Shown here: positions 2,464 to 23,593 of the stretch, in pieces
Layout: the number at the start of each line of letters is the position of its first letter
Position numbering within the stretch: position 1 is the stretch's first letter
From: Acidimicrobiaceae bacterium
GTDB lineage: Bacteria > Actinomycetota > Acidimicrobiia > Acidimicrobiales > Aldehydirespiratoraceae
Reading direction: 5' to 3'
Assembly (NCBI GenBank): GCA_009837445.1
Contig: VXTM01000038.1
Location: forward strand, 63,920-127,919
DNA length: 64,000 bases
Program-made: the position numbers and the translations under genes
Notes under the pieces: generated by a model
What the model was told of the DNA's origin: nothing
The model's database searches: none
What the model saw: the letters and a program-made list of their open reading frames with translations, nothing else

Positions 2464-2952
2464 CTAGAGGGTCCAGGTGGAGAGGACCAGGGCCCTGTCG
2501 CGCCAGGCCTGGATGTTGGCGTCGAGGACGTCGAGCGGGTTGAAGGGGGTCACGCCCTCCATCACGTCGTCCTCGCGCATGCCGTAGAGCGCGCCCATGG
2601 CGAAGCGGCAGCAGTACACCGTCGCGCCCTCGTTGATGAGAGTCTGGAGCTGGCGGTTGTACCCGAGGTTGCCGGGGAAGCCCTCCTGGCCGACGGCCGG
2701 GTAGCCGCGGGCGGCGTTGGCCATGAGCACAGCCGGGCCGTACAGCACGAACGTCAGCTTGAAGCCCTTGCGCTGCAGGCGGGTGGCGGTGAGCATGTTC
2801 ACCAGGCCGACCGAGCCCTCGAAGGGCACGGTGTGCATGAACACGTACGCCTGGTCGCCCTCCTCGGCCTTGTAATCGGGGAAGACCTTCTCCTCGATGT
2901 TGTGCATGACGTCGCCCTCTTGGGGCGGCGGGATGGTCACTGTCTTTGGCAT
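2464..2952 (-). CDS. DsrE-like protein of the MSMEG_0572/Sll0783 nitrogen-starvation family
   Basis: MPKTVTIPPPQEGDVMHNIEEKVFPDYKAEEGDQAYVFMHTVPFEGSVGLVNMLTATRLQRKGF; start chosen at the ATG preceded by AGGAGG rather than the longer ORF. Confidence 0.75.
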   Translation of the reverse strand: MPKTVTIPPPQEGDVMHNIEEKVFPDYKAEEGDQAYVFMHTVPFEGSVGLVNMLTATRLQRKGFKLTFVLYGPAVLMANAARGYPAVGQEGFPGNLGYNRQLQTLINEGATVYCCRFAMGALYGMREDDVMEGVTPFNPLDVLDANIQAWRDRALVLSTWTL

Positions 2953-3013
2953 TTCGCCTCCTTGTTGTCGATGCTGTCGATGTTGTCGATGTCTGGATCG
3001 GTTGCGGAAGGGG

Positions 3014-3274
3014 TCAGACGGCCGGTCCCCGGGGCCGGCCCGACCGGATGGGCCAGTCCCTCCGGTGCGAGCCCGGCAGGATAGCGATGATGCGGCGCCG
3101 GATGCCCCAAGGAAGCAGGCGGTACACCGGCGTGAACACGTGCCGCCAGAAGATCTCCCGAGCGCCCCGCGCCTTCTGGGGGGCCCGGGCGCCGTAACGG
3201 GCCCCGACACGCCGCTGAGCGTCGATGGCCAGGTAGCGCTCGGAGTTCGAGCGGAGCCAGTGAGCGAAACTCAT
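3014..3274 (-). CDS. Small basic hypothetical protein (86 aa)
   Basis: ORF fits between two co-directional cluster genes; contains TPVYRLLPWGIRRRIIAILPG; no family recognised. Confidence 0.55.
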   Translation of the reverse strand: MSFAHWLRSNSERYLAIDAQRRVGARYGARAPQKARGAREIFWRHVFTPVYRLLPWGIRRRIIAILPGSHRRDWPIRSGRPRGPAV

Positions 3275-3292
3275 GAGCGACTCTGCCGGCCC

Positions 3293-4615
3293 CTACAGCC
3301 CGGCCAGAAGGTTCTGCGCGGCCACCGAGATCGGCTCGTTGAGGGCGCCGATGGCGGGCGAGTAGACGTTCTCCATCGTGGCCAGCTCCTCGACGGTGAG
3401 CCCGACCCGCACCGCCATGGCCAGGAAGTCGGCCCGTTCTTTGATGCCCTCGCCGCCCACCATCTGGGCGCCGATCAGCCGGAGCGACCCCGGCTCGGCC
3501 AGCAGCTTCACGGTGATGGGCCTCACGCCCGGGTAGTAGCGGGCCCGGGTGATGCCCTGGGCCTTGCCCACCACGTGCTGGATGCCCAGCGCGGTGGCCA
3601 GCGTCTCCCCGAAGGACACCCCCCCGATCATCCACTCTCCGGCCAGCAGGCCCCACGGCACGAACACCGGCCGGTAGTGGCGGGTGCCGCCCGCCGCGTT
3701 GGTGCCGGCCGTCTTGCCCTGGGCGTAGGCGTGGGAACCGGTCAGCCCCTGGATCGGGATGTCGGTGACGCCGTGGGGGATCTCGGTGCAGTCGCCGGCC
3801 GCGTAGATGTTCGGGTCAGAGGTCTGCATCCTGGAGTCGACGACCAGCCCGCCGGTCGTACCTAGCTGCAGACCGGCGGCCTCGGCCAGCGGGTTGTTGG
3901 GCACCTTGTGGGTGCCGATGATGACGATGTCGGTGTCGATGGCGCCCTGCTCGGTCTCGACCCGGCTCACGGCGCCGTCGCCCTTGAAGGCGGTGACCCA
4001 GTTGCCCCACTGCATGTCGACGTCGGCGTCCTCCCAGGCCTGGCGGACGGGCTCGACGATGTCGGGATCGAGCACGTCGGCCATCGGCCACGGGGCCCGG
4101 TCGACGACGGTCACCTTGATCCCCCGGTGCAGCAGGGCAGCGACCATCTCCATGGCCACCAGACCGGCCTCGACGATGACCGCCGATTTGCAGGAGTCGA
4201 GGCGCTTGTCCCAGTCCATGGCCGCCCGGATGTACTTGACCTCGTAGATCCCGTCGAGGTCGGCCCCATCGACGTCCACCTTGGCGTAGTTCCAGCCTGC
4301 GCCGATGATGAGTCGGTCATAGGACACCACGCCCTCACCCGCGACGGTGAGGGTGCGCGCCTTCGCGTCGATGGCCTCGACGGTGGTCTCGTAGTGGACG
4401 TCGATCCCGGTGTTTACGTACTGCTCCTTGGTGGCCAGGAAGAGCCGCTCGAACGAGTCGATCTCGCGCCCGTGGACGTAGGGGATCCCGCAGGGGCTGT
4501 AGGCCACATCGGTGTCGGCGGTGTAGACCACCACCTCCGCGTTGGGATCGACCGCCTTGGCCGCGCCGGCGGCACCCAGTCCTGCGGCGCCTCCGCCGAT
4601 CACTGCGATCCGCAT
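3293..4615 (-). CDS. FAD-dependent pyridine nucleotide-disulfide oxidoreductase, CoA-disulfide reductase/Nox-like
   Basis: MRIAVIGGGAAGLGAAGAAKAVDP...AYSPCGIPYVHGREI (single-Cys active-site context), second Rossmann motif and YAAGDCTE. Confidence 0.85.
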   Translation of the reverse strand: MRIAVIGGGAAGLGAAGAAKAVDPNAEVVVYTADTDVAYSPCGIPYVHGREIDSFERLFLATKEQYVNTGIDVHYETTVEAIDAKARTLTVAGEGVVSYDRLIIGAGWNYAKVDVDGADLDGIYEVKYIRAAMDWDKRLDSCKSAVIVEAGLVAMEMVAALLHRGIKVTVVDRAPWPMADVLDPDIVEPVRQAWEDADVDMQWGNWVTAFKGDGAVSRVETEQGAIDTDIVIIGTHKVPNNPLAEAAGLQLGTTGGLVVDSRMQTSDPNIYAAGDCTEIPHGVTDIPIQGLTGSHAYAQGKTAGTNAAGGTRHYRPVFVPWGLLAGEWMIGGVSFGETLATALGIQHVVGKAQGITRARYYPGVRPITVKLLAEPGSLRLIGAQMVGGEGIKERADFLAMAVRVGLTVEELATMENVYSPAIGALNEPISVAAQNLLAGL

Positions 4616-4655
4616 TGTGCTCCTCTCGTCGCGGAACCGTCTCCCGGCCCGCTCA

Positions 4656-4744: not shown

Positions 4745-5140
4745 TCAGACGGCCACCACCGACAGCTCGGGGGTGTTGCGGATGGTGTTGCTCACGTAGC
4801 ACACCCGGGCCGCGGCCTCCACCAGCGCGGCCTTGACGGACTCCTCGCAGCCGGCGTCGACCCGTATCTCCAGCGCCGAGAACCGGGGCCCGTCGTACGT
4901 GCCGGTCACCTCGACGTCGACATGGGACAGCTCGATGCCGCGCTTGCCGGCCGCGTGGGCCACCGCCAGCGTGAAGCACGACGACAGCGCGGCCAGGAGC
5001 AGCTCCGTCGGCTGAGGCCCCTCGTTGGTGCCGCCCACGCTCTCGGGCTCGTCCACCGGGATCGTGAAGTCGCCGGCGGTGACATCGCAGCGGTATGCGC
5101 CCAGCCACCGGGCCGAGACTGTGCGGGTAAGCGAACTCAC
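4745..5140 (-). CDS. OsmC family protein
   Basis: GTNEGPQPTELLLAALSSCFTLAVAHAAGKRGIELSHVDVEVTG; start moved to internal GTG at 5140 because a -10-like TATAGT lies inside the longer ORF. Confidence 0.8.
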   Translation of the reverse strand: MSSLTRTVSARWLGAYRCDVTAGDFTIPVDEPESVGGTNEGPQPTELLLAALSSCFTLAVAHAAGKRGIELSHVDVEVTGTYDGPRFSALEIRVDAGCEESVKAALVEAAARVCYVSNTIRNTPELSVVAV

Positions 5141-5173
5141 GAAGAAGTCGTCCTTCAGGCGGTGGCTCAGCCC

Positions 5174-5203
5174 GTGAACTATACGACAGCCACGGATCAC
5201 AAG
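5174..5203 (-). promoter_or_regulatory. Candidate promoter/operator type I copy 1 (minus: CTTGTGATCCGTGGCTGTCGTATAGTTCAC)
   Basis: About 22/30 identical to 11578-11607; contains TATAGT -10-like box; lies between OsmC and the divergent XRE regulator. Confidence 0.55.
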
Positions 5204-5234: not shown

Positions 5235-5837
5235 ATGCGCCGCGAGGCCGGCAACGGCAACGGAGGAGAGGACCTGAGCGCGGTCGTGAACTCGATCGGG
5301 CCCAAGGTCCGCCACCTGCGCAAGCAGTGGAACCTTTCGCTGCAGCAGCTCGCCGATCGGTCCAACGTCTCGACCGCGGCCATCCACAAGGTCGAGCAAG
5401 GCACGATGGTGCCAACCATCACGACGTTGCTGAAGCTGGCCGCGGCCCTCGAACAGCCGGTGTCGTACTTCGTGGAGGAGGACCAGGAGCCGCCGCTGTA
5501 CGCGGTCTTCACACCCGCCGCCGAGCGCCGGTCGATCTACACGCCCCATGAGGGTCTCTCCCTGGGCGGCATCTCGGGCCCCTACGGGCAGTACTTCGTG
5601 GCGACCGCCATCGCCGAGGTCGAGCCGGGGGCCGACAGCGGCGAGAACCCTCTGCGCCACGCCGGCGAGGAGCTCATCCACATGCTGTCGGGGCGGCTGG
5701 ACGTCGACGTTGGCGACCAGTCGTTCCAGCTGCGCCGGGGCGACTCGATCCACTTCCGGACCGACCAGGAGCACCGCTGGCACAACCCGTACCGGCACAC
5801 GGCACGGGCGGTGTGGACCGCTCTACGCCCCAGCTGA
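5235..5837 (+). CDS. XRE-family transcriptional regulator with C-terminal cupin domain
   Basis: VRHLRKQWNLSLQQLADRSNVSTAAIHKVEQGTMVPTITTLLKLAAAL helix-turn-helix; C-terminal cupin (GEELIHMLSGRLDVDVGDQSFQLRRGDSIHF). Confidence 0.9.
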   Translation: MRREAGNGNGGEDLSAVVNSIGPKVRHLRKQWNLSLQQLADRSNVSTAAIHKVEQGTMVPTITTLLKLAAALEQPVSYFVEEDQEPPLYAVFTPAAERRSIYTPHEGLSLGGISGPYGQYFVATAIAEVEPGADSGENPLRHAGEELIHMLSGRLDVDVGDQSFQLRRGDSIHFRTDQEHRWHNPYRHTARAVWTALRPS

Positions 5838-5851: not shown

Positions 5852-7276
5852 CTATACGTTCGGCCTCACCGACAGGCGCTGGTCGAGGTCGATCAGGGCC
5901 TGCATGAAGCACTCGACGGGGGCGCGGGCCACGCCGGCGCCCACCTGGCCGGACCCGTCGGAGATGTGGAGGATCCCGGTGTTGACCGCCGGGGTGATAG
6001 AGGTCTCGACCACCCGACGGACGTCGACCCCCAGAGGGGTGCCGGCGTTGTCGAGCACCGGCAGCCGGAACCGGCTGCTGGTGCCGGCGCAGATGCGGCC
6101 CATGGCCTTGGTGACGGCCATGGCGTCGGCCATGCGGCCCCCGAGGAAACCGGCCACCGCAGGAGAGTTGGCCGCGGCCGGGCCACCCAGCCCCACCAGC
6201 TCCAGGACGGCGCTGTCACCGATGTCTCCGGCGCTGGTGTCGGGACCCTGGTCCGGGTAGTACAGGGCGTCCTGCACAGGGGGCGCCTCCGCTATGAACC
6301 AGGGCTCGGGCCGGCCAGGCAGGCGGATGCCGTAGGTGGTGCCGTTGCGGGCCATGGTGGTGACGATGCTCGAGTCCGGCACCTGGCCGGCCCACTCGAC
6401 CAGGGCGCGGGCACCGGCCATGACAATGTTGAGGAACATCAGGTGGTTGGTGCTCAGGAAGTCGGCTACCTCGCCGATGCTGGCGACATTCGAGCGGACC
6501 AGCTGCGGGAGCAGGTCGCGCAACAGCAGGTTGGTGGTGGCCTGGACCCGCATGTGCACGTCGTCGCCCATGGTGATGCCCTGGGCGGCCAGTGAGAACA
6601 CGTCAATCGGTCCGGTCCCGTCGAGAGCCTGGGCCAGGGCTGGACCGAGCGCGTCCCGCAGGAACCGGAGGCGCTCGATGGCCGCGTCGGAGTCGACCCC
6701 GAACCAGGCGACCGCCCCCGAACCCTGGTTCAGGCTGGAGTAGGCAGTGGTGCCGCCGGCATCGACCGAGACCACGTAAACGGGCGCGGTGGGACCGATC
6801 GCGGTGGCCATCGGCACCACTGTGCAGTGCTCGTTGGCCGGCTCCAGCCGGATCTCGCCAGCCTGCGCCATGCGGTCCGCGGCTTCGGTGTGGGGGGCCC
6901 AGTCCTCGGCCACGACCGCGGCCCTGACCGAGCGCCGGAGCGGGTCGCACATGTCGGCCCAAGCGATCCGCGGCCCGCAGTGCAGGATCGTCCCTTCGTC
7001 CATGCCGCTGATCACCGAGCCTGCCGTGTCCACCCCCAGCAGCATGGGCACGCCGCGGTCCAGACGGCTGATCACCTCGGCGTTGGCCGCGTCCACCCGG
7101 TCCGCGGCCGGGCCCAGCAGTCGGGCCAGCGCCGCCACCGCGTCGAGGTCGCCGCCGGCGGGGATGCGCCAGTCCACTCCGACCGCGGGGGCGCCCTGGT
7201 CCCGCACTGCGGTCTCGAACCGCTCCAGCCCGATGTTGACGACTTCCACCCTGTCGGGCAACTCAATGGCGCTCAT
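5852..7276 (-). CDS. allG: DUF1116 family protein (YlbE/AllG-like oxamate carbamoyltransferase component)
   Basis: SSLNQGSGAVAWFGVDSDAAIERLRFLRD...MARNGTTYGIRLPG...GVDVRRVVETSITPAVNTGILH typical of DUF1116. Confidence 0.8.
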   Translation of the reverse strand: MSAIELPDRVEVVNIGLERFETAVRDQGAPAVGVDWRIPAGGDLDAVAALARLLGPAADRVDAANAEVISRLDRGVPMLLGVDTAGSVISGMDEGTILHCGPRIAWADMCDPLRRSVRAAVVAEDWAPHTEAADRMAQAGEIRLEPANEHCTVVPMATAIGPTAPVYVVSVDAGGTTAYSSLNQGSGAVAWFGVDSDAAIERLRFLRDALGPALAQALDGTGPIDVFSLAAQGITMGDDVHMRVQATTNLLLRDLLPQLVRSNVASIGEVADFLSTNHLMFLNIVMAGARALVEWAGQVPDSSIVTTMARNGTTYGIRLPGRPEPWFIAEAPPVQDALYYPDQGPDTSAGDIGDSAVLELVGLGGPAAANSPAVAGFLGGRMADAMAVTKAMGRICAGTSSRFRLPVLDNAGTPLGVDVRRVVETSITPAVNTGILHISDGSGQVGAGVARAPVECFMQALIDLDQRLSVRPNV

Positions 7277-7358
7277 CGCAGCCGGCGTGCGTATCCGTTC
7301 CGCCCGAAGCCCCTAGAGGCCCCGCGGATTGAGGAGCAAACCCGGTCCACACGGGCGG

Positions 7359-7408
7359 GGCCGTGGCCCGAGCGGCCCGTGAGCGCAGCGAACAAGAGCG
7401 GGAATGAC
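7359..7408 (+). repeat. 50-nt intergenic repeat copy 1
   Basis: GGCCGTGGCCCGAGCGGCCCGTGAGCGCAGCGAACAAGAGCGGGAATGAC; reverse complement found exactly at 37495-37544. Confidence 0.85.
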
Positions 7409-7451
7409 CCCGCCGCATCGCGATCGACTGCCGAGCAATCCGCGCACGCTC

Positions 7452-7997
7452 TTACGACATCGTGACGAGCAGGGCGCTCGGCGCGTCGCGGGCGGCAGGC
7501 AGTCGCAGGTGAGCGTCTTCTGGGATGTCGGCCTCGACGAGCCTCCGGGCCTCAGCCAGCCGGAAGATCATCGGCTGGTGCGGCAAGCCGTAATAGGGCA
7601 CAGGCGGCCCGTTGTGCTCCCATCCGATGCGTTCGAAGAAGGTGACATTCTGGAGTTGCACGAAGGCGTCCATCACGGTGCCTCCTGCCTCGGCGGCAGT
7701 CGACACCGCGAAGCGCACCAGCCGGATCCCGACTATTCCCGCCCGGTAGCCGGGCAGCACGGCCAGGCGGTCGCCCTTCCAGCGGCCCGCGTCGTCGGTG
7801 CGGTACAGGCGGACCGTGCCGATCGCCTCCGGTCCCCGGCCGGCGACCACATGGATCGTGTCGGGGTCGGCGTCCCAGTCGTCGACGTCGGTGAGGGGAA
7901 TGACCCGCTGCTCCTCCACGAACACCCGGTGCCGGATACGCATGTGCCAGCTCCGGGCCTCGGGAGAGACAGCCCGCCAGCATTCGATTCGCTCCAC
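7452..7997 (-). CDS. GNAT N-acetyltransferase, MSMEG_0567/Sll0786 family
   Basis: RIRHRVFVEEQRVIPLTDVDDWDADPDTIHVVAGRG...IGTVRLYR...RIGWEHNGPPVPYYGLPHQPM; start taken at GTG (VERIECWRAV). Confidence 0.75.
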   Translation of the reverse strand: MERIECWRAVSPEARSWHMRIRHRVFVEEQRVIPLTDVDDWDADPDTIHVVAGRGPEAIGTVRLYRTDDAGRWKGDRLAVLPGYRAGIVGIRLVRFAVSTAAEAGGTVMDAFVQLQNVTFFERIGWEHNGPPVPYYGLPHQPMIFRLAEARRLVEADIPEDAHLRLPAARDAPSALLVTMS

Positions 7998-8011
7998 TGC
8001 CGCCCCCGCTG

Positions 8012-9130
8012 TCAGCCCAGGGCCTTCACGGGGATCAGCGTGCGCCCGTTGGACCCCTGAAGTTCCCGCTCCATCGCTCCCACCGGCGAGCAAGCCTGGC
8101 ATCGGGCGCAGCCGGCCGCGACCTTGTCCGCGGTCAGTCCCCGCTCCACCAGGTACGGCGCGACCTTGCGGGCGACCTGATCGACATAATCAGCGGCAGG
8201 GGGCGTCCAGTCGCCCATCAGCGAGCCCGGGACCGGCCGCAGGGGCACCACGAAGGGGTACACGCCGATGTCGGCAGCCCGCCGGCAGCCGTCCACGATC
8301 AGGTCCGGGTCCTCTCCCATGCCCAGGATCACATAGGTGGAGACCTGACCCTCGCCGAAGCGCTCCACGGCGTACTCCCAGGTCTCGAAGTAGCGGTCGA
8401 TGCCGGTGCGGTACTTGGGGGGAGCAACCCAGCGCAGCACCTCCGGATCGAAGGTCTCCACATGGATGCCGACCGAGTCGATCCCCCGGTCGGCCACCTG
8501 GTCGATCACGCTGAAGTCGTCGGGCGGCTCGAACTGGACCTCGACAGGAAGGCCCGAGGCCTCCTTCATGGCCTGGCCGCACTTGGCCACGTAGAGGGCG
8601 CCCTTGTCGCGGCCGTAAGTGGAGCCGGTCGTCAAGGTGATGTCCACCGCGCCGTCGAGTTCCTTGGCCGCCACCGCCACCTCGGCCAGCTGCGCCGGGC
8701 GCTTCACCAGCACCGTGCTGCCCGAGTCCAGCGACACCCCGATACCGCAGAAGCGGCACTGATCCTCGTTGCCCCAGTAGGCGCAGGTCTGCAGAACGGT
8801 GCTGGCCAGCGAGTCGAGGTGCATAAGGGCCAAGTGCCAGTACGGGACGCCGTCGGCGGTGGTAAGGCCGTAGAACCGGGGCCGGTCGGCGGGAGCCGCG
8901 CCGGCCAGCCGGACACCGTCGGCGTAGATCCCGAACCCGACGTCCTCGGGCTCGAGCGAGTACGGGGAGTCGGCCACGAATCCAGCGTCCACCGGCACCG
9001 TCACCGCAGTGCCCTCGATCCAGACCATGCCCGCGTCCGACGGTCCGGCTCCGCCCGGCCGTCGCTCGAAGGGGGCGTTTATCCGCAGACCCTTGAACTG
9101 GAGGTCAATGATGAGTTCGGCCAGGGACAC
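8012..9130 (-). CDS. Radical SAM protein, MSMEG_0568 family
   Basis: CAYWGNEDQCRFCGIGVSL cysteine cluster, TTGSTYGRDKGALYVAKCGQAMKEASGLPVEVQFEPP, C-terminal GCARCQACSPV. Confidence 0.8.
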   Translation of the reverse strand: MSLAELIIDLQFKGLRINAPFERRPGGAGPSDAGMVWIEGTAVTVPVDAGFVADSPYSLEPEDVGFGIYADGVRLAGAAPADRPRFYGLTTADGVPYWHLALMHLDSLASTVLQTCAYWGNEDQCRFCGIGVSLDSGSTVLVKRPAQLAEVAVAAKELDGAVDITLTTGSTYGRDKGALYVAKCGQAMKEASGLPVEVQFEPPDDFSVIDQVADRGIDSVGIHVETFDPEVLRWVAPPKYRTGIDRYFETWEYAVERFGEGQVSTYVILGMGEDPDLIVDGCRRAADIGVYPFVVPLRPVPGSLMGDWTPPAADYVDQVARKVAPYLVERGLTADKVAAGCARCQACSPVGAMERELQGSNGRTLIPVKALG

Positions 9131-9232: not shown

Positions 9233-9760
9233 CTAGGGGATCTCGTTCCCCGTAGCGAGGATCAGAGCCGGCACCCAGAAGGTGTAGATCGCGGTTCCGG
9301 CCAGGATCAGGCCCAGGAGCTTGGCTTCGAGCTTGCCATAGGTGGTGAGGGCCACCGACCCGAACGCGACCAGCCACACGATCAGGATCGACTGGAACAT
9401 CCAACTGCCGTCGAAGAAGTCCCACCAGAACATCGGGAGGATGGCCGTCGGCACGGCGAGGTTCCCCACCACGCGCAGGTCCCATCCATTGGCCTCGGTC
9501 TTGCCGAGAACCACGAAGAACAGGCCGTAGAACGTGACCAGCCCGGCGAGGACAACCGAATTGTCGTCCAGCGGCCGGGCCCACATGATGTAGACGGCTT
9601 GGACCAGGTTCAGCAGACCGACGACCAGGCTCGCGTGCCCGATGCTGACGAGCGGGTTCGTTCCCCCCTCCTTCTGATCGGCGCCCACGCCGAGGAAGTA
9701 GAGGGCGTTCAACCACACGATCAAGCCGGTGGCTATGAACACGATGGTGATAGGAGGCAT
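9233..9760 (-). CDS. AmiS/UreI family amide/urea channel
   Basis: Multi-TM MPPITIVFIATGLIVWLNALYFLGVGADQKEGGTNPLVSIGHASLVVGLLNLVQAVYIMW; start set at internal ATG. Confidence 0.85.
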   Translation of the reverse strand: MPPITIVFIATGLIVWLNALYFLGVGADQKEGGTNPLVSIGHASLVVGLLNLVQAVYIMWARPLDDNSVVLAGLVTFYGLFFVVLGKTEANGWDLRVVGNLAVPTAILPMFWWDFFDGSWMFQSILIVWLVAFGSVALTTYGKLEAKLLGLILAGTAIYTFWVPALILATGNEIP

Positions 9761-9778
9761 GCCAAGCCCCTTCCTGTC

Positions 9779-9822
9779 CATCCGACATTTCGGATGAGAC
9801 ATAGTTATTTCCCAAACCTAAA
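9779..9822 (-). promoter_or_regulatory. Candidate operator/promoter type II copy B: perfect inverted repeat CATCCGA-CATT-TCGGATG followed by AGA-N15-AACCTAAA (plus-strand reading)
   Basis: CCGACATTTCGGATGAGA is 16/18 identical to 4656-4673, with AACCTAAA at nearly the same distance. Confidence 0.6.
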
Positions 9823-9896: not shown

Positions 9897-10265
9897 TCAG
9901 TGGTCGTGATGATGGTGGTCGTCGCCGTGGTCGTGATCGCCGTGGTCGTGGCCCGGTGGGCGGGCCGCGTATGCCGCGGCCAGCGCGTCCACCTCGGGCT
10001 CCGAGACGATCGCCCGCTCCTCCACGATCGACTCGAGGGCCTCCTGCCAGCGCTCGTAGTACCGGTACTCCCCCACCGGGTCCGACTCCCAGCGCTGCAC
10101 GGCCGCGATCAGGTGGTCGCGGAAGTCGTCCCAGGTGAAGTGGCCGCCCTCCACCAGAGCCATGGCCATGGCGAAGCTGCGCCCCTCCCAGGGCGCGTCG
10201 AACACCAACTCGCCGTTGAGCCGGGGCGGCGCGGCCGGGCCTTCGATGTCGAGAGTGAGAGCCAC
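9897..10265 (-). CDS. Nitrile hydratase accessory protein with His/Asp-rich C-terminus
   Basis: LNGELVFDAPWEGRSFAMAMALVEGGHFTWDDFRDHLI (NHase beta-N-like accessory) ending GHDHGDHDHGDDHHHHDH; follows NHase alpha. Confidence 0.85.
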   Translation of the reverse strand: MALTLDIEGPAAPPRLNGELVFDAPWEGRSFAMAMALVEGGHFTWDDFRDHLIAAVQRWESDPVGEYRYYERWQEALESIVEERAIVSEPEVDALAAAYAARPPGHDHGDHDHGDDHHHHDH

Positions 10266-10275: not shown

Positions 10276-10875
10276 TCAGCCTGCGCTGACCTTGGCCACC
10301 CCCACCATGGCGTCGCGGGTCACGAGCGCAGCCAGTTCGTCCTCGGAGAGGTCCTCGGTGCCCTCGGGCCGCTGGGGCAGCACCAGATAGCGGTTCTCGG
10401 CGCTGGAGTCCCACACCTGGACCTCGACGCTGTCGTCGAGGTCGAGGCCCATCTCGCTCAGCAGGGTGCGGGGCTCGCGCACCATGCGGCTGCGGTAGGC
10501 CGGATCCTTGTACCACTCCGGCGGCAGACCGAGAACCGGCCACGGGTAGCAGGAGCACAGGGTGCAGACCACCACGTTGTGTACGTCGTCGGAGTTCTCG
10601 ACCACCACGATGTGCTCGCCCTGGGGTCCGGCGAAGCCGAGCTCCTTGATGGCCCCGGTGCCGTCGGTGAGCAGCTGCGCCCGGTAGTCGTCGTCGACCC
10701 AGGCCTTGGCCACCACCTTGGCCCCGTTCATGGGGCCCACGTCGTTGACGAAGCGGTTGATGAAGCCGTCGAGCACCTCGGACTTGACGAGGCCGCGCTC
10801 GGTGAGCAGCGACTCCAGAGCCTCGGCCCGCACTGCGGGCGATGGCCGGTCTGTGGTGTGGGAGTGGTCAGCCAT
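10276..10875 (-). CDS. nthA: Nitrile hydratase alpha subunit, cobalt-type
   Basis: Metal site [21 protein letters not shown]; Thr in VCTLCSC is the Co-type signature. Confidence 0.93.
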
Positions 10876-15469: not shown

Positions 15470-16262
15470 GAAGCGACCCCGCGGTATGGGTGGGAAGGCT
15501 GGTTCGGAGGGTGTCGGAGCGCAGCCCCTGCCTGAGCGCCTCCACGCCGAGCACCTCTTCGGGGGCGATGTTGGCGAGGTTGACGTTCGCGCCCAGATGG
15601 TTGACGAGCCAGGCCTGCTGCTGGCGCAGCGGCGCCTCATAGACGACCGGCGCGTCCTCGCCGAGGCGTCCGAGGGCCTCCACGAGGTCGGCTCGAACCG
15701 ATCCGTCGGCGGCATAGAGGCCCACCGTTCCGCTCTCGCGGCCCTCGGCAACCAGCCACGCCGCGCCGCAGTCCAGGTCGCTGCGGGCCTCCTCGAGCCA
15801 TTCCGAGGCCAGGGCGGGCTCATGCGGATCCTTGCTGCCCACCTCAGCGAACACTTCGAAGTCGCGGTCGCGGGCCGCGCCGATGAGGCCGCGCTTGGAC
15901 GAGGCCGGCAGGCCGGTGGCGCCCCGAGACACCTCCACGCAGTCGAAGCCAACCCGTTCGGCCCACGTGAGGAACTCCGAGCTCCGGCCCTGCCACCAAG
16001 CCGCCTCCATCAGAGTGCCTCCCGGACAAGCCCTCACCTCGTGACCCCGCAGCAACTCGACCTTGGCGCCAACGGTGCCGTCGACGTAGGCGGTGCCGAA
16101 GCCGAACTTCCAGACGTCGACCAGGGGCCCGTGGGCCTCGAGCAGCTCTTTCATGACGGCCAGGGGCGTGCCCTTGTCGATGACATGGGTGATCCCGCGG
16201 CGGCGCGGCTTCGAGGTTCGAGCGGCAGTCTCGAGGAACCGCGGAGACTCGGAGATGGGCAT
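15459..16262 (-). CDS. comA: Phosphosulfolactate synthase (ComA-like)
   Basis: RRRGITHVIDKGTPL...VDVWKFGFGTAYV...KVELLRGHEVRACPGGTLMEAAWWQGR...FAEVGSKDP...YEAPLRQQQAWLVNHLGANVNLANI. Confidence 0.82.
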   Translation of the reverse strand: MPISESPRFLETAARTSKPRRRGITHVIDKGTPLAVMKELLEAHGPLVDVWKFGFGTAYVDGTVGAKVELLRGHEVRACPGGTLMEAAWWQGRSSEFLTWAERVGFDCVEVSRGATGLPASSKRGLIGAARDRDFEVFAEVGSKDPHEPALASEWLEEARSDLDCGAAWLVAEGRESGTVGLYAADGSVRADLVEALGRLGEDAPVVYEAPLRQQQAWLVNHLGANVNLANIAPEEVLGVEALRQGLRSDTLRTSLPTHTAGSLRGP

Positions 16263-16284: not shown

Positions 16285-17121
16285 TCACACCACGATGGGC
16301 CGAGACACCATTGTACGGGTCACTTCAGTACGGGCCAGTTCGGTGGCAGCCAGAGCCATGCCGGCCATGAGCGCCCGGCCCGACGTCGCTCCCACTTCGG
16401 CCAGCGACCGGGCGGCCTCAACCATTGCGGTCGGATCGCCGGCGGCGGCCGCGTCGAGCAGGGCGTGCGCGGGCTCGATGCTCTGGCCCGCCGCGGCCCA
16501 CCTCAGGAAGGCGCGGCTTAGCGTGGTCGTGCGGGCCGAGCCGGCCAAGCGCCCCAGGGTTCTACGACATGTTGGATCCATAGCGAGCACCAGCAGGATT
16601 CCGGCGAGCACGTCGTCGCCACTGGGCGTGAGCCCGGGGCCGCGCCCCGCCAGCCGACCGAACACCGCGGCCAGATCCCCGCGCCGAAGGTCATCCGTCA
16701 CCGCTTCCCACACGGGCGCCAGCTCAATGTCCACACCAGCCGCGAGACCATGCCAAGCCTCCGGGTCGGCCTTGAGGCGCTCAGGCAGGCTCGGTACCCA
16801 GCGTCGGCATCCGTCGAGCGGGACGCAGACCGGGCCAACCACAAGGGTGCCGTCGGTGACACGCGCCCTCTCGTGAACCGCAGGCAGCTCAGCCATCCTG
16901 CCGGCGACGAGGTGCAGGGGCCCCGGCCAGTGCCGGGGACCCATCACCGCGAAGAACTCCTCCGAAGGGCCTGAGACATAGAAGCCGTCGTCGAAGGTGC
17001 CCTGCACCCGGCCGACGAATCCGGGACGGGCCGCTTCGAGAACCCCGGCACCGCACCAGCGCGCCGGGACCGGCTCCGCCGCTGCTGTACCGTGCGGCCG
17101 TGACCCCGCCCGAGTCGTCAT
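16285..17121 (-). CDS. allH: DUF2877 family protein (YlbF/AllH-like); start uncertain
   Basis: GRGPGLTPSGDDVLAGILLVLAMD motif; chosen ATG overlaps the divergent gene start by about 22 nt. Confidence 0.75.
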   Translation of the reverse strand: MTTRAGSRPHGTAAAEPVPARWCGAGVLEAARPGFVGRVQGTFDDGFYVSGPSEEFFAVMGPRHWPGPLHLVAGRMAELPAVHERARVTDGTLVVGPVCVPLDGCRRWVPSLPERLKADPEAWHGLAAGVDIELAPVWEAVTDDLRRGDLAAVFGRLAGRGPGLTPSGDDVLAGILLVLAMDPTCRRTLGRLAGSARTTTLSRAFLRWAAAGQSIEPAHALLDAAAAGDPTAMVEAARSLAEVGATSGRALMAGMALAATELARTEVTRTMVSRPIVV

Positions 17122-18059
17122 CGCTGGACCGGCTGGTGGACGCGGTCCGCACCCATGGAGGCTTGCGGGCCAAGCGGGCGATCGGAGCCGTCGGGCGCGT
17201 CCTCGGTGCCGCCGATCCGCTGAGCGGTCCCGGTGACGACGGCGCCGCGGTGGAGATGTCCTCCGCCGGCTCGGTGATCGTGTGCGGCGAGGCGCTCCTT
17301 CCCGGCTTCGTGGCATCGGATCCCCGGGGCGCGGGGATCGCGGCGGTGCTCGCCAACGTCAACGATCTCGCGGCCATGGGAGCGGTCCCCAGAGGGATCG
17401 TGAACACTGTCGTGGCGACGGCACCGGTGGCGGCTGAGGCCCTGCGGGGAATGGCCGAGGCCGCGGCCCTCTACGACGTGCCCATCGTGGGCGGTCACCT
17501 GACCGAGCACCAGGGCGAACCGGCGCTGTCGGCGTTCGCGGTCGGGGACGCCGACCGGGTCCTGTCGGCCAACCGAGCCCGTGCCGGCCAGCATCTCGTA
17601 TTCGCCTGCTGTCTGGACGGCAGGATGCGGACCGACTTCGACTTCTTCACCACCCTCGAATCGCAGGGACCCCGCCTCGCTGCTGATGCGCGCCTGCTGG
17701 CCCGGGCGGCCAGCGAGGGTCTCGCTTCGGCGGCCAAGGATGTCAGCATGGCCGGAGCGATCGGTTCGCTGGCGATGCTGCTCGAGCCTCAACGCCTCGG
17801 TGCCGAGATCGACCTCGACGCGCTGCCGGCGCCTGAGGGGGTGGCCCTGGACCGCTGGCTGGTCTGCTTCCCGACCTACGCCTTCTGGCTGACCACGGAC
17901 AGACCCGAAGCCTGTGTGGACCTGTTCCGATCGGCGGGACTGGCCGCCAGCGTCGCCGGGACCGTCACGGACGGCGGCGTCCTGGCGCTCCGGCAGGGCA
18001 CCGAGAGCCGGGATGTGATCGATCTCAGGCGAGAACCAGTCACCGGTCTCTGGGATTGA
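17100..18059 (+). CDS. AIR synthase-like (PurM/SelD fold) protein, Sll0787 family
   Basis: GPGDDGAAVEMSSAGSVIVCGEALLPGFV...ANVNDLAAMGAVP...AKDVSMAGAIGSLAMLLE...DRWLVCFPTYAFWLT. Confidence 0.8.
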   Translation: MTPPESSSLDRLVDAVRTHGGLRAKRAIGAVGRVLGAADPLSGPGDDGAAVEMSSAGSVIVCGEALLPGFVASDPRGAGIAAVLANVNDLAAMGAVPRGIVNTVVATAPVAAEALRGMAEAAALYDVPIVGGHLTEHQGEPALSAFAVGDADRVLSANRARAGQHLVFACCLDGRMRTDFDFFTTLESQGPRLAADARLLARAASEGLASAAKDVSMAGAIGSLAMLLEPQRLGAEIDLDALPAPEGVALDRWLVCFPTYAFWLTTDRPEACVDLFRSAGLAASVAGTVTDGGVLALRQGTESRDVIDLRREPVTGLWD

Positions 18060-18090: not shown

Positions 18091-18750
18091 TCAGGCTCCG
18101 GCCGCCTCGATCCGGCTCTTCATCGTCAGCCGGTGATCCTCGAAGAGCTCACGGTCGCCGGTCTCCACATCTCCGAAGGAGGCCGCGTCCAGCTCCGCCG
18201 TCCGGCCGTGCTCGTCGCCCAGTGCGGCCACCATCACCACATAGGTGGGCGCCATCGTCGAGGGATCGGGCTCGACGGTGCTGACCACCGCCAGGCCGGT
18301 GGCCAGGTGCAGCTCGATGCACTGGTAGGGATCGACGAGGCCCGCACCCAGGTCGCCCTGCTCGTGGACCACCGCCCACGCCTCGCCGGCCTCGCGGGCC
18401 GCGGCGATGCGGTCCCGGCGCTCCCGCTCGGCCCGCTCGGCCAGCAGCTCGCGGCGGCGAATCGCGAACCCAGCCCCGGCGATCTCCGCCTCGGGTAGCC
18501 GGTACCCGGCGATGTCGCCGGACGCCCGCAGCGCCCCGTCCACCAGATCGGACCGGCGCTCCCACCACTCCACCAGCCCGTCCAGGTCCTCGACCTCGGC
18601 CAGGGCGTCGGCCACCGCTCTCACCAGCCTCACCGCGGACTGGTACGCGTCCGGGTTGGTGGTGGCCACCGGATAGAGCCGGCGCTCGCTCTCGTCCCAA
18701 TGGGCGGCCAGCACCGCCGTGGGGTCTGTGGCCGGAGAGCGGTTGCTCAT
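18091..18750 (-). CDS. Hypothetical protein
   Basis: 219 aa, MSNRSPATDPTAVLAAHWDESERRLYPVATTNPDAYQSAVRLVR; candidate promoter at about 18831. Confidence 0.6.
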   Translation of the reverse strand: MSNRSPATDPTAVLAAHWDESERRLYPVATTNPDAYQSAVRLVRAVADALAEVEDLDGLVEWWERRSDLVDGALRASGDIAGYRLPEAEIAGAGFAIRRRELLAERAERERRDRIAAAREAGEAWAVVHEQGDLGAGLVDPYQCIELHLATGLAVVSTVEPDPSTMAPTYVVMVAALGDEHGRTAELDAASFGDVETGDRELFEDHRLTMKSRIEAAGA

Positions 18751-18921: not shown

Positions 18922-19902
18922 TTGGCCGAGACCGCAGTCCTCGCTCTCGGTGGAAACGCGCTCATCCGTGAGGACCAGCGGGGCACCCTGGAGGAGCAGT
19001 ACGCCAACGCGCTGGCCATGGCCCTGTCGGTTCGCTCGCTGATCCGCAAGGGCTGGAACGTGGTGATCGTGCACGGCAACGGTCCCCAGGTCGGCAACCT
19101 GGCCATCCAGCACGAGGGCTCGATCGATCTCGTCCCCGCCCTGCCCCTGTTCACGCTGGGAGCCATGACCCAGGGGCAGTTGGGAAGCCTGATCTGCCTC
19201 GCCCTCAACGAGGTGTGCAAGCAAGAGATCGCCGGAGCGGTGTCGGTCATCACCCACGTCGAGGTTGACTCGGGCGATCCCAGACTGTCCGAGCCCACCA
19301 AGCCGATCGGCCCGTTCTTCGACCGGTCCGAAGCCGAGTCCCTGGCGGCCAACAGGGGCTGGACAATGGCCGAGGACGCCGGACGCGGCTACCGGCGGGT
19401 GGTGCCGTCACCGCGGCCGATGGCGCCCATCGAGGCCGACGCCATCTCGGCGCTCATCGATCTGGGCTACATCGTGGTGGCCGGCGGCGGGGGCGGGATC
19501 CCCGTAGCCCGGTCGGCCGACGGCGCCTACCGGGGAGTCGATGCGGTCATCGACAAGGACTTCGCGGCCGAGCGCATCGCGGACGCGGTGGCGGCCCAGG
19601 CTCTGGTTATGGTCACCGGTGTGGCCGCGGTTCAACTCCATTTTGGCACTCCCCGCCAGCAGGCGGTGACCGAGATGACGGCTACCGAGGCCCGGCTCCA
19701 TCTGGCCGACGGCCAGTTCCCTCCAGGAAGCATGGGACCCAAGGTCGAGGCGGCGATCGAGTTCGTGGAAGCTACGGGACGGATCTCAGCCATCACCACT
19801 CCCGAGTTGGTGTACGGGACCCTCGACGAGCCCGCCGGTGTGATAGCAGGCCCGCGGGGCACCCGGATAGTGCCCGATCCGGTTCCCGCGCTGATCTCCT
19901 GA
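18922..19902 (+). CDS. arcC: Carbamate kinase
   Basis: AETAVLALGGNALI...VIVHGNGPQVGNLAIQ...PVARSADGAYRGVDAVIDKDFAAERIADAV...PGSMGPKVEAAIEF. Confidence 0.93.
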   Translation: MAETAVLALGGNALIREDQRGTLEEQYANALAMALSVRSLIRKGWNVVIVHGNGPQVGNLAIQHEGSIDLVPALPLFTLGAMTQGQLGSLICLALNEVCKQEIAGAVSVITHVEVDSGDPRLSEPTKPIGPFFDRSEAESLAANRGWTMAEDAGRGYRRVVPSPRPMAPIEADAISALIDLGYIVVAGGGGGIPVARSADGAYRGVDAVIDKDFAAERIADAVAAQALVMVTGVAAVQLHFGTPRQQAVTEMTATEARLHLADGQFPPGSMGPKVEAAIEFVEATGRISAITTPELVYGTLDEPAGVIAGPRGTRIVPDPVPALIS

Positions 19903-19914: not shown

Positions 19915-21465
19915 ATGACCGCCACAGCCAAGGTCGTCGCAGACTGCTACGTCGACAGTGTGCGACTGCTCGAGGCAACCCGCGCCATGCGCGAGGCTCC
20001 CGGTGTCGACTGGGCCTGGGCGCTCATGGCCACGCCGGCCAACCTGGAGGTCCTCTTCGACGAGGGTGTGACCGAAGGGCTCGACAGCGCCGCGGCCAAC
20101 GACCTCGTCCTGGCGGTCAAGGGCACCGACGAGAACTTGCCGGCAGCCCTGTTGAGAGCCTGGGCGGTGCTGTTCGAGGATACCGGTTCAGCCGGTGCCG
20201 GCGCCCCGCCTGACGCACGCCCCGCCGGCCTGGACGACGCTCTGGTCTCGGCACCGGAGGCCAACGTCGCCATCGTCTCCGTGCCCGGCCCGTACGCAGC
20301 CCTCGAGGCCCACAAGGCCCTCACCCGCGGTCTCGACGTGCTGCTGTTCAGCGACAACGTGGACTTGGCCGACGAGATCGACCTGAAGCGCCGGGCCCGC
20401 TCTCTCGGTCGGCTGGTCATGGGACCGGGCGCGGGCACCGCGGTGCTGGCCGGTGTGGGGCTCGGCTTCTCTAACCGGGTGGCTCCTGGGCCGGTAGGGG
20501 TGGTGGCCGCGGCCGGCACCGGCGCTCAGGAAGTGATGACGTTGCTCGACCGTTGGGGATCGGGCGTGTCCCATGTCATCGGCGTGGGCGGCCGGGACCT
20601 CTCGGCCGCGGTCGGAGGGGCCATGGCCGAGGCGGCCATCGAGGCGCTCGACCGCCACGAGGGGACCGAGTTGACGCTCCTGGTGTCCAAGCCGCCCGCG
20701 GCCGAGGTCGCCGAGCGCCTGCTGGGCGCTTCCCGCAGCAAGCCGCTGGTGGCCGCATTGATCGGGTTGGACCGGCCGGTGGATGCCGCGCCCGGCGTCA
20801 CGGTGTGCGGCACGCTCGAGGAGGGAGCCGTGGCCGCGCTGGGCGCGCTCGGTTCGGCGGAACCCGACCCGGTCGGCTCCCTCGACGCCGAGGTCGCCAG
20901 GCTCACCACCGCCCTCAGCCCATCCCGCAGGCGCATGGTCGGGCTGTTCAGCGGGGGCACGCTGGCCTACGAGGCCATGGTCGTCGCCAGCCGCCACATC
21001 GGACCGGTGTACTCGAACACGCCGCTCGAGCCCTCCTGGGGGCTGCCCGGTCCCGGAGATGGTCACGTGTGCCTGGACCTCGGCGAGGAGGAGTACACGC
21101 AGGGCAGGCCCCACCCCATGATCGACCCCGAGGCCAGGGTCGAGCTGCTGCGCCAGCAGGCCTCGGATCCGAGCGTGGCCGTCGTGCTGCTCGATGTGGT
21201 CATCGGCGACGGGGCCCACCCCGACCCGGCCGCGGTGCTGGCTCCGGTCGTGGCCGAGTTGGTGGCGGAGGGCGCGGCCGTGGTGGCCTACGTCCTGGGC
21301 ACCGAGCGCGACCCGCAGGGCTTCGAGCGCCAGCGCGACGTGATGCGCCAGGCCGGCTGCGTCGTCGCCGACACCAGCGCCCGGGCGGCCCTGGCCGCGG
21401 CCGCTCTCATCAACCGCGACCCTGCGCTCCTCCACTACGACCTGTCGGCGCACCTGGCGACGTGA
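19915..21465 (+). CDS. fdrA: FdrA-like acyl-CoA-synthetase-fold protein (AllF-like oxamate carbamoyltransferase component)
   Basis: DCYVDSVRLLEATRAMREAPGVDWAWALMATPANLEVL; LGRLVMGPGAGTAVLAGVGLGFSN; LFSGGTLAYEAM. Confidence 0.83.
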   Translation: MTATAKVVADCYVDSVRLLEATRAMREAPGVDWAWALMATPANLEVLFDEGVTEGLDSAAANDLVLAVKGTDENLPAALLRAWAVLFEDTGSAGAGAPPDARPAGLDDALVSAPEANVAIVSVPGPYAALEAHKALTRGLDVLLFSDNVDLADEIDLKRRARSLGRLVMGPGAGTAVLAGVGLGFSNRVAPGPVGVVAAAGTGAQEVMTLLDRWGSGVSHVIGVGGRDLSAAVGGAMAEAAIEALDRHEGTELTLLVSKPPAAEVAERLLGASRSKPLVAALIGLDRPVDAAPGVTVCGTLEEGAVAALGALGSAEPDPVGSLDAEVARLTTALSPSRRRMVGLFSGGTLAYEAMVVASRHIGPVYSNTPLEPSWGLPGPGDGHVCLDLGEEEYTQGRPHPMIDPEARVELLRQQASDPSVAVVLLDVVIGDGAHPDPAAVLAPVVAELVAEGAAVVAYVLGTERDPQGFERQRDVMRQAGCVVADTSARAALAAAALINRDPALLHYDLSAHLAT

Positions 21466-22613
21466 GGCGACCGGGCCGGATCGCGATCGTCACCTTCTCG
21501 GTCAAGCCTCGCGGCGGCGCCGTGCACAGCGTGGAACTGGCGGAGGCTCTGGCCGCCGAAGGCGTCGACGTGACCCTCATCGCCCTGGGCGATCCGGCGG
21601 AGGGCTTCTTCAGGGCCGCGACGGTGCCGGTGCACATCATCGAAGCCCCCCGGCGTGCCCCAACGCTGACCGAGCGGGTCTTCTCACACATCGACGCCCT
21701 CGAGTCGGGCCTCGCGGACCAGCGCGGCCGGTTCGACATCGTGCACACCCAGGACTGCATCTCGGCCCGGGCCGCGGCGCGGGTACGGGACCGCGGCGGA
21801 GGCTTCCGGCTCTTCCGGACGGTTCACCACATAGACGACTTCACCACGCCCGCGCTCATCGAGTGCCAGGACGCGGCCATCCTGGAGCCGGACCGGGTGC
21901 TGGTGGTTAGCGACCCCTGGAGGCGGCGCCTTCTCGACGAGTACGGCGTGGAGGCGGCGGTGGTCACCAACGGGGTGAGGGTCGAGCGGTTCGCGGGCGC
22001 AAGGCCGCCCGGCGAACGGGACCGGCTACGGGCCCGGATCGGCGCCGCCGACCGCCACGTGTTCCTGACGGTGGGAGGGATCGAGCCCCGCAAGGGCTCG
22101 CAGTACCTGGTCGAGGCGCTGGGCCTGCTCAAGGCCATGCCGGGACGGGCCCCGATGCTGGCGGTGGTGGGCGGGCACTCCTTCCAGGACTACCGGGCCT
22201 ACCGGGACGGGGTGCTCGACTCGCTGAGGTCCCACGGCCTGCGGCTCGACGACGACGTGGCGCTGGTCGGGACGGTTCCCGACGCCGAGCTGCCCGGCTG
22301 GTTCGGTGCTGCCGACAGCTTCGTGTTCCCGTCGGTCAGCGAGGGCTGGGGCCTGGCGGTGCTGGAGGCCCTGGCCGCCGGGCTGCCGGTGGTGACCTCC
22401 GACATCGAGGTCTTCAAGGAGTTCCTGACCCACGACGTCGATGTGGTGATGACCGAGACGGCCAACCCGGCCTCGGTGGCCGCCGGCATGGCCCGGGTGA
22501 GAGACGAACCCGACCTCGTGCAGCGGCTGCGGACCAACGGCGCGGCCACCGCCGGCCGCTACTCGTGGTCGAGCACGGCCCGGCGCCACCTGGAGCTCTA
22601 CACCGCGGATTGA
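21462..22613 (+). CDS. Glycosyltransferase, MSMEG_0565 family (GT4-like)
   Basis: IAIVTFSVKPRGGAVHSVELAEALAAEG...FDIVHTQDCISA...GGIEPRKGSQYLVEALGLL...PSVSEGWGLAVLEALAAGLPVV; GTGA overlap with fdrA stop. Confidence 0.8.
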   Translation: MRRPGRIAIVTFSVKPRGGAVHSVELAEALAAEGVDVTLIALGDPAEGFFRAATVPVHIIEAPRRAPTLTERVFSHIDALESGLADQRGRFDIVHTQDCISARAAARVRDRGGGFRLFRTVHHIDDFTTPALIECQDAAILEPDRVLVVSDPWRRRLLDEYGVEAAVVTNGVRVERFAGARPPGERDRLRARIGAADRHVFLTVGGIEPRKGSQYLVEALGLLKAMPGRAPMLAVVGGHSFQDYRAYRDGVLDSLRSHGLRLDDDVALVGTVPDAELPGWFGAADSFVFPSVSEGWGLAVLEALAAGLPVVTSDIEVFKEFLTHDVDVVMTETANPASVAAGMARVRDEPDLVQRLRTNGAATAGRYSWSSTARRHLELYTAD

Positions 22614-23317
22614 GCGTCGCTCGAGTCTCGGGCCGGCGCACGCGACAGCAGCGTGCCGGTCGCGAGGGCCATCACGGCCCATGCCACCGCCAGCGCGCCC
22701 AGGGAGGCCAGCCGGAAACGCCACACGAGGTCGGCGGGGGCCTCGACGGTGTCGGGACTGGCCGGCAGCGCCAGGAAGATCACGACCAGGCCCGCGGCGT
22801 AGAGCGCGGCCGTTGCCCAGGTCTGCGCCGCCGGTGCCAGCCGGGCGGTCCGATGGAACCTCCAGACCGCCCACGCCAGCAGGATCGACAGCGCCAGCAC
22901 CGCAAAGTACAGCATCGTGCGCTCGTTGACGGTGGAGGGATCGCCGACCGCCGGGGGGTTGGCCGGGTACTTGAGGAAGGGCACGACCACCACTGCCACG
23001 AACCCCACGCATCCGAGCCGGACCGAGGCAGCCAGGGGTGTGGGTGCGGCCAACCGGGGCCCGACCGCGCCGAGCACCACCGCGAAGATCACGCCCAGAG
23101 CCAGCCCGAAGACGATCAGCCCGACCGCCCCGCCGATCTCCTGGGTGCCCCGGGTGAAGAGGTCCTCGTGATGGGCGCCGCTGGTGGCGTGGCTGAGGCT
23201 GTCCTCGAGGGCGATGGCGTCGCGGATCGGCCCGCGGCCCGCGGTCGCTGCGAACAGCGCGGAGGCGGCACCGGCGGCCAGTCCCGCCAGGCTGCCGGCG
23301 GCCAGTAGTCGCTTCAT
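22598..23317 (-). CDS. cbtA: Cobalt transporter CbtA-like
   Basis: Multi-TM; MKRLLAAGSLAGLAAGAASALFAATAGRGPIRDAIALED...VVPFLKYPANPPAVGDPSTVNERTMLY. Confidence 0.8.
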   Translation of the reverse strand: MKRLLAAGSLAGLAAGAASALFAATAGRGPIRDAIALEDSLSHATSGAHHEDLFTRGTQEIGGAVGLIVFGLALGVIFAVVLGAVGPRLAAPTPLAASVRLGCVGFVAVVVVPFLKYPANPPAVGDPSTVNERTMLYFAVLALSILLAWAVWRFHRTARLAPAAQTWATAALYAAGLVVIFLALPASPDTVEAPADLVWRFRLASLGALAVAWAVMALATGTLLSRAPARDSSDAQSAV

Positions 23318-23386
23318 CGGCGCGGGTTGGGAGCTAGCTCGCTCGCCAGCGCCGGTACGGGCGGCACATCCGGCGGCCTCCGGGCG

Positions 23387-23593
23387 TCAGTGGCAGGGCA
23401 CGCCAACGAAGTGCCGGCCGTCGTGGAAGAACTCGTGGAGGGTCTCGGCGGCGCCGGCGAGCACCGTGCCGTTCTCGAGCATCACGAAGTACGACACCAG
23501 CGCGGCCACCGCGACGAGAGCCCAGGCCCAAACCGGTACGTCGATCTCCTCGAATGCCGGAGCCGCCGGCGCGGGCAGAGCGTGAGTCTCCAT
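23387..23593 (-). CDS. cbtB: Cobalt transporter CbtB-like
   Basis: One TM followed by TLHEFFHDGRHFVGVPCH, a His-rich C-terminus typical of CbtB; adjacent to cbtA. Confidence 0.78.
   Translation of the reverse strand: METHALPAPAAPAFEEIDVPVWAWALVAVAALVSYFVMLENGTVLAGAAETLHEFFHDGRHFVGVPCH

Follow-up and report, generated by a model that had tools for sequence, protein, structure and literature searches.

The systems closest to the locus analyzed here are the Nit1C cluster, represented by nitABCDEFGH of Pseudomonas, sll0783-0787 of Synechocystis and MSMEG_0565-0572; the bacterial coenzyme M (CoM) operon xcbA-E of Xanthobacter Py2 (plasmid pXAUT01), M. chubuense NBB4 and Nocardioides JS614; the oxamic transcarbamylase genes allFGHK of E. 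coli, along with the uncharacterized yahEFG-yahI; and cobalt nitrile hydratase operons of the nhlBAE type. To our knowledge, bacterial CoM is known only from alkene and epoxide degraders. Nit1C is needed for cyanide assimilation in Pseudomonas (PMC11049912), and the E. coli AllFGH proteins reversibly convert oxalurate and phosphate to oxamate and carbamoyl phosphate, from which carbamate kinase then yields ATP (PMC11326118). In an Acidimicrobiaceae bacterium (assembly GCA_009837445.1), within a 64,000-nucleotide stretch of contig VXTM01000038.1 (hereafter, the window), a block of about 20 genes combines Nit1C homologs with a cobalt-type nitrile hydratase, CoM genes, and AllFGH and carbamate kinase genes. 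As an earlier reading of this DNA from its letters alone (the sequence-only reading) had proposed, the block is bounded by rnhB (1617-2426) and gpsA (25131-26462). That reading also called the locus a hybrid with added modules; the genes do belong together, but the wording understates a system that is conserved across many families. The CoM genes (xcbB, xcbA, xcbD, xcbC and, usually, an xcbE-like gene), cluster-specific AllFGH and carbamate kinase genes, thiol-redox genes and the Nit1C core travel together.

The conservation of the block was assessed by scanning species genomes with an XcbA alignment, which yielded 51 loci; nearly all full-length loci among these have the same genes. After extension of the flanks, 24 loci were taken as near-complete, having been selected for the radical S-adenosylmethionine (SAM), glycosyltransferase, coenzyme A disulfide reductase-like (CoADR-like), 0572 and AllG genes, so that these five are present in 24/24 by selection. 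XcbC, XcbD, AllF, the GNAT-family and Sll0787-like proteins and a small 86-amino-acid protein are found in every one of the 24, as is XcbA, the query of the scan; ComA and OsmC are each present in 22, and the XcbE-like protein, carbamate kinase and the regulator each in 20. The hosts include Kribbella, Pseudonocardia, Actinomycetospora, Nocardioides, Terrabacter, Nonomuraea, Microbispora, Ilumatobacter and Methylocystis, along with metagenome-assembled genomes (MAGs) labelled Dormiibacterota, Acidobacteria and Bacillota; soil, sponge and methane-oxidizing bacteria are among the carriers, which span many families of Actinomycetota and the proteobacterium Methylocystis. The radical SAM gene scores above its family cut-off in 7 of 8 XcbA-bearing genomes compared with 16 of 247 overall (Fisher p ~9e-9, uncorrected for kinship).

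On a plasmid of Methylocystis iwaonis, the genes are arranged in the order CoADR-like, small open reading frame, 0572, DUF1116, glycosyltransferase, AllF, regulator, Sll0787, 0567, 0568, Nit6803 nitrilase, OsmC, ComA, XcbA, XcbD, pyridoxal phosphate (PLP) enzyme and XcbC. In phylogenetic analysis (quick trees, with SH-aLRT support only), the cluster XcbA proteins form one clade (support 100) apart from the XcbA of the alkene plasmids. Methylocystis nests with Kribbella, Ilumatobacter and Acidimicrobiia alike in the AllG, XcbA and XcbC trees, which fits acquisition of the block by transfer as a unit. In Solirubrobacter (L066), an alkene-type XcbA lies beside an early-branching AllG and a Nit1C set, and this may be a second, independent joining.

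The genes of the block in the window are given below; families were assigned with Pfam and NCBIfam profiles, and scores are in bits against the curated cut-offs.

2464-2952, minus strand: MSMEG_0572/Sll0783 DsrE-like nitrogen-starvation protein (TIGR04044, 200 bits, cut-off 110), with a conserved Cys112
3014-3274, minus strand: small conserved 86-amino-acid protein between the 0572 and flavin adenine dinucleotide (FAD) reductase genes, 54% identical to the Pseudonocardia copy; no Pfam family matched
3293-4615, minus strand: CoADR-like FAD oxidoreductase (TIGR03385, 269 bits, below the cut-off of 579)
4745-5200, minus strand: OsmC-family thiol peroxidase-like protein (PF02566; Cys75 and Cys134 conserved)
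5235-5837, plus strand: XRE-cupin transcriptional regulator (HTH_3 and Cupin_2)
5852-7276, minus strand: AllG-like (DUF1116) carbamoyltransferase subunit (PF06545, 223 bits; cluster-specific clade in the tree)
7452-7997, minus strand: MSMEG_0567/Sll0786 GNAT-family protein (TIGR04045, 87 bits, cut-off 68)
8012-9130, minus strand: MSMEG_0568 radical SAM protein (TIGR04043, 367 bits, cut-off 304)
9233-9802, minus strand: AmiS/UreI-like channel (PF02293, a weak 27.6 bits against a cut-off of 25)
9897-10265, minus strand: nitrile hydratase accessory/activator protein (TIGR03889, 70 bits, above cut-off)
10276-10875, minus strand: nitrile hydratase alpha subunit (TIGR01323, 301 bits, above cut-off; VCTLCSC motif; cluster clade)
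10876-11535, minus strand: nitrile hydratase beta subunit (TIGR03888, 209 bits, above cut-off)
11669-13201, minus strand: XcbC-like lyase of the argininosuccinate-lyase fold (NF052535, 430 bits)
13188-14537, minus strand: XcbD-like lyase of the adenylosuccinate-lyase fold (NF052536, 507 bits)
14522-15454, minus strand: XcbA/DUF7714 CoM-operon protein (NF052538, 290 bits, cut-off 150)
15459-16262, minus strand: ComA/XcbB phosphosulfolactate synthase (PF02679, 247 bits; motifs conserved relative to the solved ComA structure 1qwg)
16285-17121, minus strand: AllH-like (DUF2877) carbamoyltransferase subunit (PF11392, 76 bits)
17100-18059, plus strand: Sll0787-like protein of the AIR-synthase/PurM superfamily (TIGR04049, 244 bits, cut-off 321)
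18091-18750, minus strand: conserved protein, usually adjoining the radical SAM gene and present in many further loci; AlphaFold model with a mean confidence (pLDDT) of 90, no PDB fold matched
18922-19902, plus strand: AllK-like carbamate kinase (NF009007, 315 bits, above cut-off)
19915-21465, plus strand: AllF/FdrA-like carbamoyltransferase subunit (NF004760, 404 bits, cut-off 433)
21462-22613, plus strand: MSMEG_0565-family glycosyltransferase (TIGR04047, 369 bits, cut-off 260)
22598-23317, minus strand: CbtA cobalt transporter subunit (PF09490, 171 bits)
23387-23632, minus strand: CbtB cobalt transporter subunit (PF09489, 26 bits, slightly below the cut-off of 27)

The window has a G+C content of 70% and comes from a 3.9 Mb genome that is 94% complete and whose nearest relatives in the public genome scan are Acidimicrobiaceae/Acidimicrobiia MAGs. 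An Rfam scan of positions 1-34000 of the window detected no riboswitch and no other RNA.

The part of the block that the sequence-only reading took for a sulfonate module around ComA is indeed present but is, judging by family assignment and gene order, specifically a bacterial CoM biosynthesis operon consisting of ComA, two lyases and DUF7714; CoM production itself is a prediction. ComA is followed on the same strand by XcbA (DUF7714), XcbD and XcbC, that is, in the order xcbB-A-D-C. The ethene-degrader plasmids of M. chubuense NBB4 and Nocardioides JS614 show the same gene order, with XcbE added (ComA-XcbA-XcbD-XcbE-XcbC), and the known xcb operons also share with the cluster an adjoining CoADR-like FAD oxidoreductase. 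ComA reaches 240 bits on TIGR03849 (cut-off 280), and the Xcb families are the best-scoring ones for XcbC and XcbD, with scores below the NCBIfam cut-offs. We considered these scores as evidence against CoM synthesis and rejected that argument, given that proteins of the M. chubuense and JS614 CoM plasmids also fall below: on NF052535, the XcbC of the window has 430 bits compared with 396 and 378 for M. chubuense NBB4 and Nocardioides JS614, and the cut-off of 575 is above all three. XcbC is predicted to catalyze the phosphate-elimination step of CoM synthesis. XcbA, for which the AlphaFold model (pLDDT 92) has no PDB fold match at E 0.001, occurs in only six PLSDB plasmid records, from Methylocystis, Mycolicibacterium, Nocardioides and Xanthobacter; it retains cysteines 188, 217, 239, 260 and 261, a possible metal site.

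The cluster differs from the xcbA-E operons in its separate XcbA clade, in its linkage to nitrogen genes and in lacking epoxide:CoM transferase, of which no orthologue was found in 19 of the 20 cluster genomes searched. The exception is Methylocystis, where the transferase and a separate alkene-type XcbE are both located on a contig other than that of the cluster. A further difference, confined to some lineages including that of the window, concerns XcbE. Most relatives encode, between XcbD and XcbC, a PLP-dependent member of the XcbE/D-cysteine desulfhydrase group; the XcbE-like label rests on position and order, as the profile score is alike for unlinked paralogues. The window has no XcbE between XcbD and XcbC, which share a 14-base overlap, and its 94% complete genome yielded no member of the family at E 0.001; only distant XcbE matches are found in another group of genomes (G168, G190 and G093). 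The window lineage may employ another C-S lyase, possibly a PatB-like protein encoded in the same genome (G000:C20:2467-3570; 301 bits, cut-off 340), or may make a different end product. On Xanthobacter pXAUT01, a second xcb copy (Xaut_5067-5070; L139:11938-16546 and L203:16386-22081) also has no adjacent XcbE, which is present in the first copy (Xaut_5055).

All three AllFGH subunits and a carbamate kinase are encoded in the window, in line with the oxamate carbamoyltransferase proposed by the sequence-only reading; oxamate as the substrate is not established, because the AllG of the cluster lies apart from that of E. coli. The cluster AllG proteins, including those of two CoM-less loci, L098 and L099, form one clade (support 99) separate from E. 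coli AllG, YahG and the other actinobacterial copies and, unlike in E. coli allFGHK, no allantoin genes are present in the block. The E. coli yahE-yahJ region (L202:1426-8001) encodes an uncharacterized set of DUF2877, FdrA, DUF1116, carbamate kinase and amidohydrolase proteins that parallels the AllFGHK and amidohydrolase part of the cluster. Beside their carbamate kinase genes, L098 and L099 both have a gene for a fold-I PLP enzyme; each also encodes an amidohydrolase, and L098 additionally AllF and an SsuD-like monooxygenase.

The nitrile hydratase shares with nhlBAE-type operons the order of beta, alpha and accessory genes and the cobalt-type motif. The CTLCSC motif is the signature of cobalt-type nitrile hydratases, and the alpha subunit carries it as C104-T105-L106-C107-S108-C109, conserved among the cluster copies. 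In contrast to those operons, the block contains no amidase, and the hydratase belongs to a dedicated clade within a larger pathway, with CbtAB nearby. This clade comprises the cluster hydratases and two other members, one encoded beside a cluster-clade AllG (G104) and one in another XcbA-bearing genome (G125); the hydratases encoded elsewhere in two genomes with the amidohydrolase version (G028 and G043) fall outside it. The sequence-only reading further held that the hydratase stands in for the Nit1 nitrilase, and this is borne out by its position, which in other versions of the cluster is occupied by Nit1 (Methylocystis) or by an amidohydrolase. Searches with the TIGR04048 profile and with the Methylocystis nitrilase as queries agree with the claim that no nitrilase is visible: no protein of the 94% complete genome exceeds 48 bits on the Nit1 profile, whose cut-off is 503. 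The homologous locus of Methylocystis does contain a nitrilase, but in the position held elsewhere by the hydratase, so that this finding supports exchange rather than speaking against it. Among the 24 near-complete clusters, the position is filled by nitrile hydratase only in 8, by Amidohydro_2 only in 11 and by a true Nit1 only in 2 (both Methylocystis), so that exactly one such enzyme is present in 21; one cluster has both hydratase and amidohydrolase, and two, both with short flanks, have none. The same place adjoining 0572 holds the hydratase in L046 and L054 and the amidohydrolase in L053, L061 and L062. The cluster thus contains one exchangeable slot for nitrile hydratase, amidohydrolase or Nit1. 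Accordingly, of the joint conservation of hydratase, Nit1C and ComA parts that had been suggested, the Nit1C and CoM parts hold, but the hydratase is variable and no hallmark of the system, an amidohydrolase being present in 12/24. CbtA is found in 5 of 9 hydratase clusters and in none of the 15 others of this set (shared ancestry uncorrected), and the AmiS/UreI-like gene, present in 2 of the 24, is a lineage-specific addition.

The Nit1C core was recognized correctly by the sequence-only reading: the MSMEG_0572, 0567, 0568 and 0565 homologs lie together in the block and all score above the NCBIfam cut-offs, and for the AIR-synthase-like protein, Sll0787 is the best family, at a score below its cut-off. 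Compared with the Nit1C cluster, with which it shares the 0572, 0567, 0568 and 0565 families, along with a Sll0787-like protein, in one block, the window has nitrile hydratase instead of Nit1 (the Methylocystis version of the supercluster retains a Nit6803-type Nit1 nitrilase) and adds the CoM operon, AllFGH with carbamate kinase, the CoADR-like reductase, OsmC and two uncharacterized core proteins. The CoADR-like protein keeps the single active-site Cys42, along with conserved Y360, Y361 and Y418, and homologs with 30-32% identity adjoin three alkene CoM operons; because of this cysteine and these neighborhoods, it is a plausible candidate for a CoM-disulfide reductase. The Sll0787-like protein matches ThiL, PurL and HypE in the PDB, and the glycosyltransferase resembles MshA and BshA.

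Several further observations concern these genes and their surroundings. The radical SAM protein (8012-9130) has a conserved CX8CX2C motif (C116/C125/C128) instead of the usual CX3CX2C and also a C-terminal CX2CX2C. A Mycobacterium-like Nit1C locus (L100) encodes two carbon-nitrogen hydrolases (7339-8211 and 11939-12790) that are close to N-carbamoylputrescine amidase, as well as NtaA- and SsuD-like monooxygenases. Just beyond the block, past gpsA and a CofC-like gene, the window encodes a BshB1/MshB-like PIG-L deacetylase (26814-27545). In Pseudonocardiaceae loci (L028, L045, L051 and others), apparent homologs of LarC, LarB and LarE (nickel-pincer cofactor synthesis), identified by eye, recur beside the cluster.

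The interpretation that we tentatively favor, at somewhat less than even odds, is that this single co-inherited supercluster uses a CoM-type thiol, an exchangeable hydrolyzing step and an exit through carbamoyl phosphate to feed in nitrogen from a cyanide- or nitrile-derived substrate. In this scheme, a CoM-type sulfonated thiol would be synthesized specifically to trap a group derived from cyanide or a nitrile. Hydrolysis or hydration of the trapped C-N group by the slot enzyme would give a carbamoyl-bearing product, which AllFGH would release as carbamoyl phosphate for conversion by carbamate kinase to ATP, ammonia and CO2. Thiol recycling would fall to the disulfide reductase and OsmC, and the cobalt required by the hydratase of the window would come from CbtAB. 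The pathway would serve nitrogen-stressed cells for scavenging nitrogen or for detoxification. A chemically coherent but rather unlikely specific form is a CoM-thiocyanate cycle for cyanide assimilation. Here, cyanide would react with the disulfide or persulfide of CoM to yield CoM-SCN; having no amino group, this compound, unlike cysteine thiocyanate, would not cyclize. Nitrile hydratase would turn CoM-SCN into S-carbamoyl-CoM, and phosphorolysis by AllFGH would regenerate CoM and give carbamoyl phosphate, converted by carbamate kinase to ATP, ammonia and CO2, with the CoADR-like enzyme restoring the thiol balance.

Several points weigh against this nitrogen-feeding interpretation. Most of the evidence is synteny, the substrate and the product are conjectural, and the proposed pathway gives no role to the radical SAM, GNAT, PurM-like or glycosyltransferase proteins. 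The amidohydrolase, the commonest filler of the slot, is not among the enzymes known to hydrate nitriles, and the reaction at the slot may therefore be something other than nitrile hydrolysis. Lacking XcbE, the lineage of the window may not complete CoM. Finally, no CoM genes accompany AllG, carbamate kinase and the Nit1C core in L098 and L099, so AllFGH is not necessarily tied to CoM.

Among the alternatives, the strongest, albeit still unlikely, is that the cluster is biosynthetic: the glycosyltransferase, together with the GNAT, radical SAM and PurM-like proteins, would assemble a small thiol or a complex cofactor out of a CoM-like unit and a carbamoyl group, with the slot enzyme in a tailoring role. 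The similarity of the glycosyltransferase to MshA and BshA, the core status of the CoADR-like, OsmC and DsrE-like thiol-redox genes and the missing epoxide enzyme, the known user of CoM, all speak for such a product, as does the presence of HypE, which dehydrates an S-carbamoyl group to S-cyano, among the relatives of the PurM-like protein. However, no transporter or product-specific gene was identified in the cluster, in E. coli, AllFGH and carbamate kinase serve catabolism (PMC11326118), and a role in cyanide assimilation has been demonstrated for Nit1C (PMC11049912). Plain CoM could instead serve in stress protection, with Nit1C and AllFGH linked to it only via shared induction by nitrogen starvation. 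One report describes CoM overproduction genes that guard a methanogen against oxidative stress (PMC12713407), and OsmC and the disulfide reductase belong to the core, but the interleaved gene order, the arrival of AllG, XcbA and XcbC together in Methylocystis by transfer and the retention of the remaining genes in two lineages without XcbE make this explanation improbable.

Sulfonate or epoxide catabolism, in which CoM would be made, as in Xanthobacter, to break down epoxides or small alkenes, with the nitrogen genes as mere neighbors, appears very improbable: the operon order equals that of the alkene CoM plasmids, but the cluster XcbA is a clade apart and, in Methylocystis, the alkene-type XcbE and the transferase are on another contig. 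A true epoxide pathway was rejected given the lack of an epoxide:CoM transferase orthologue in 19/20 cluster genomes. As for a chance assembly of unrelated genes in one sponge symbiont, nothing beyond the functional variety of the genes suggests it, and the synteny of over 40 loci from different phyla refutes it, leaving it a negligible likelihood.

The individual parts, Nit1C, the xcb operon, AllFGHK and cobalt nitrile hydratase, are known; in agreement with the sequence-only reading, a search limited to openly licensed papers found no description of their combination as one pathway. Because the CoM genes belong to a conserved block of many unrelated bacteria that mostly do not encode the epoxide enzyme, an unrecognized bacterial role is probable for CoM or for a closely related compound. 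Nit1C gains new partners, namely, a carbamoyltransferase, carbamate kinase and thiol-redox proteins, and the natural swaps of the hydrolytic enzyme constrain its chemistry. The presence of the block in the cultured hosts Kribbella, Pseudonocardia, Nonomuraea and Methylocystis makes it amenable to experimental test.

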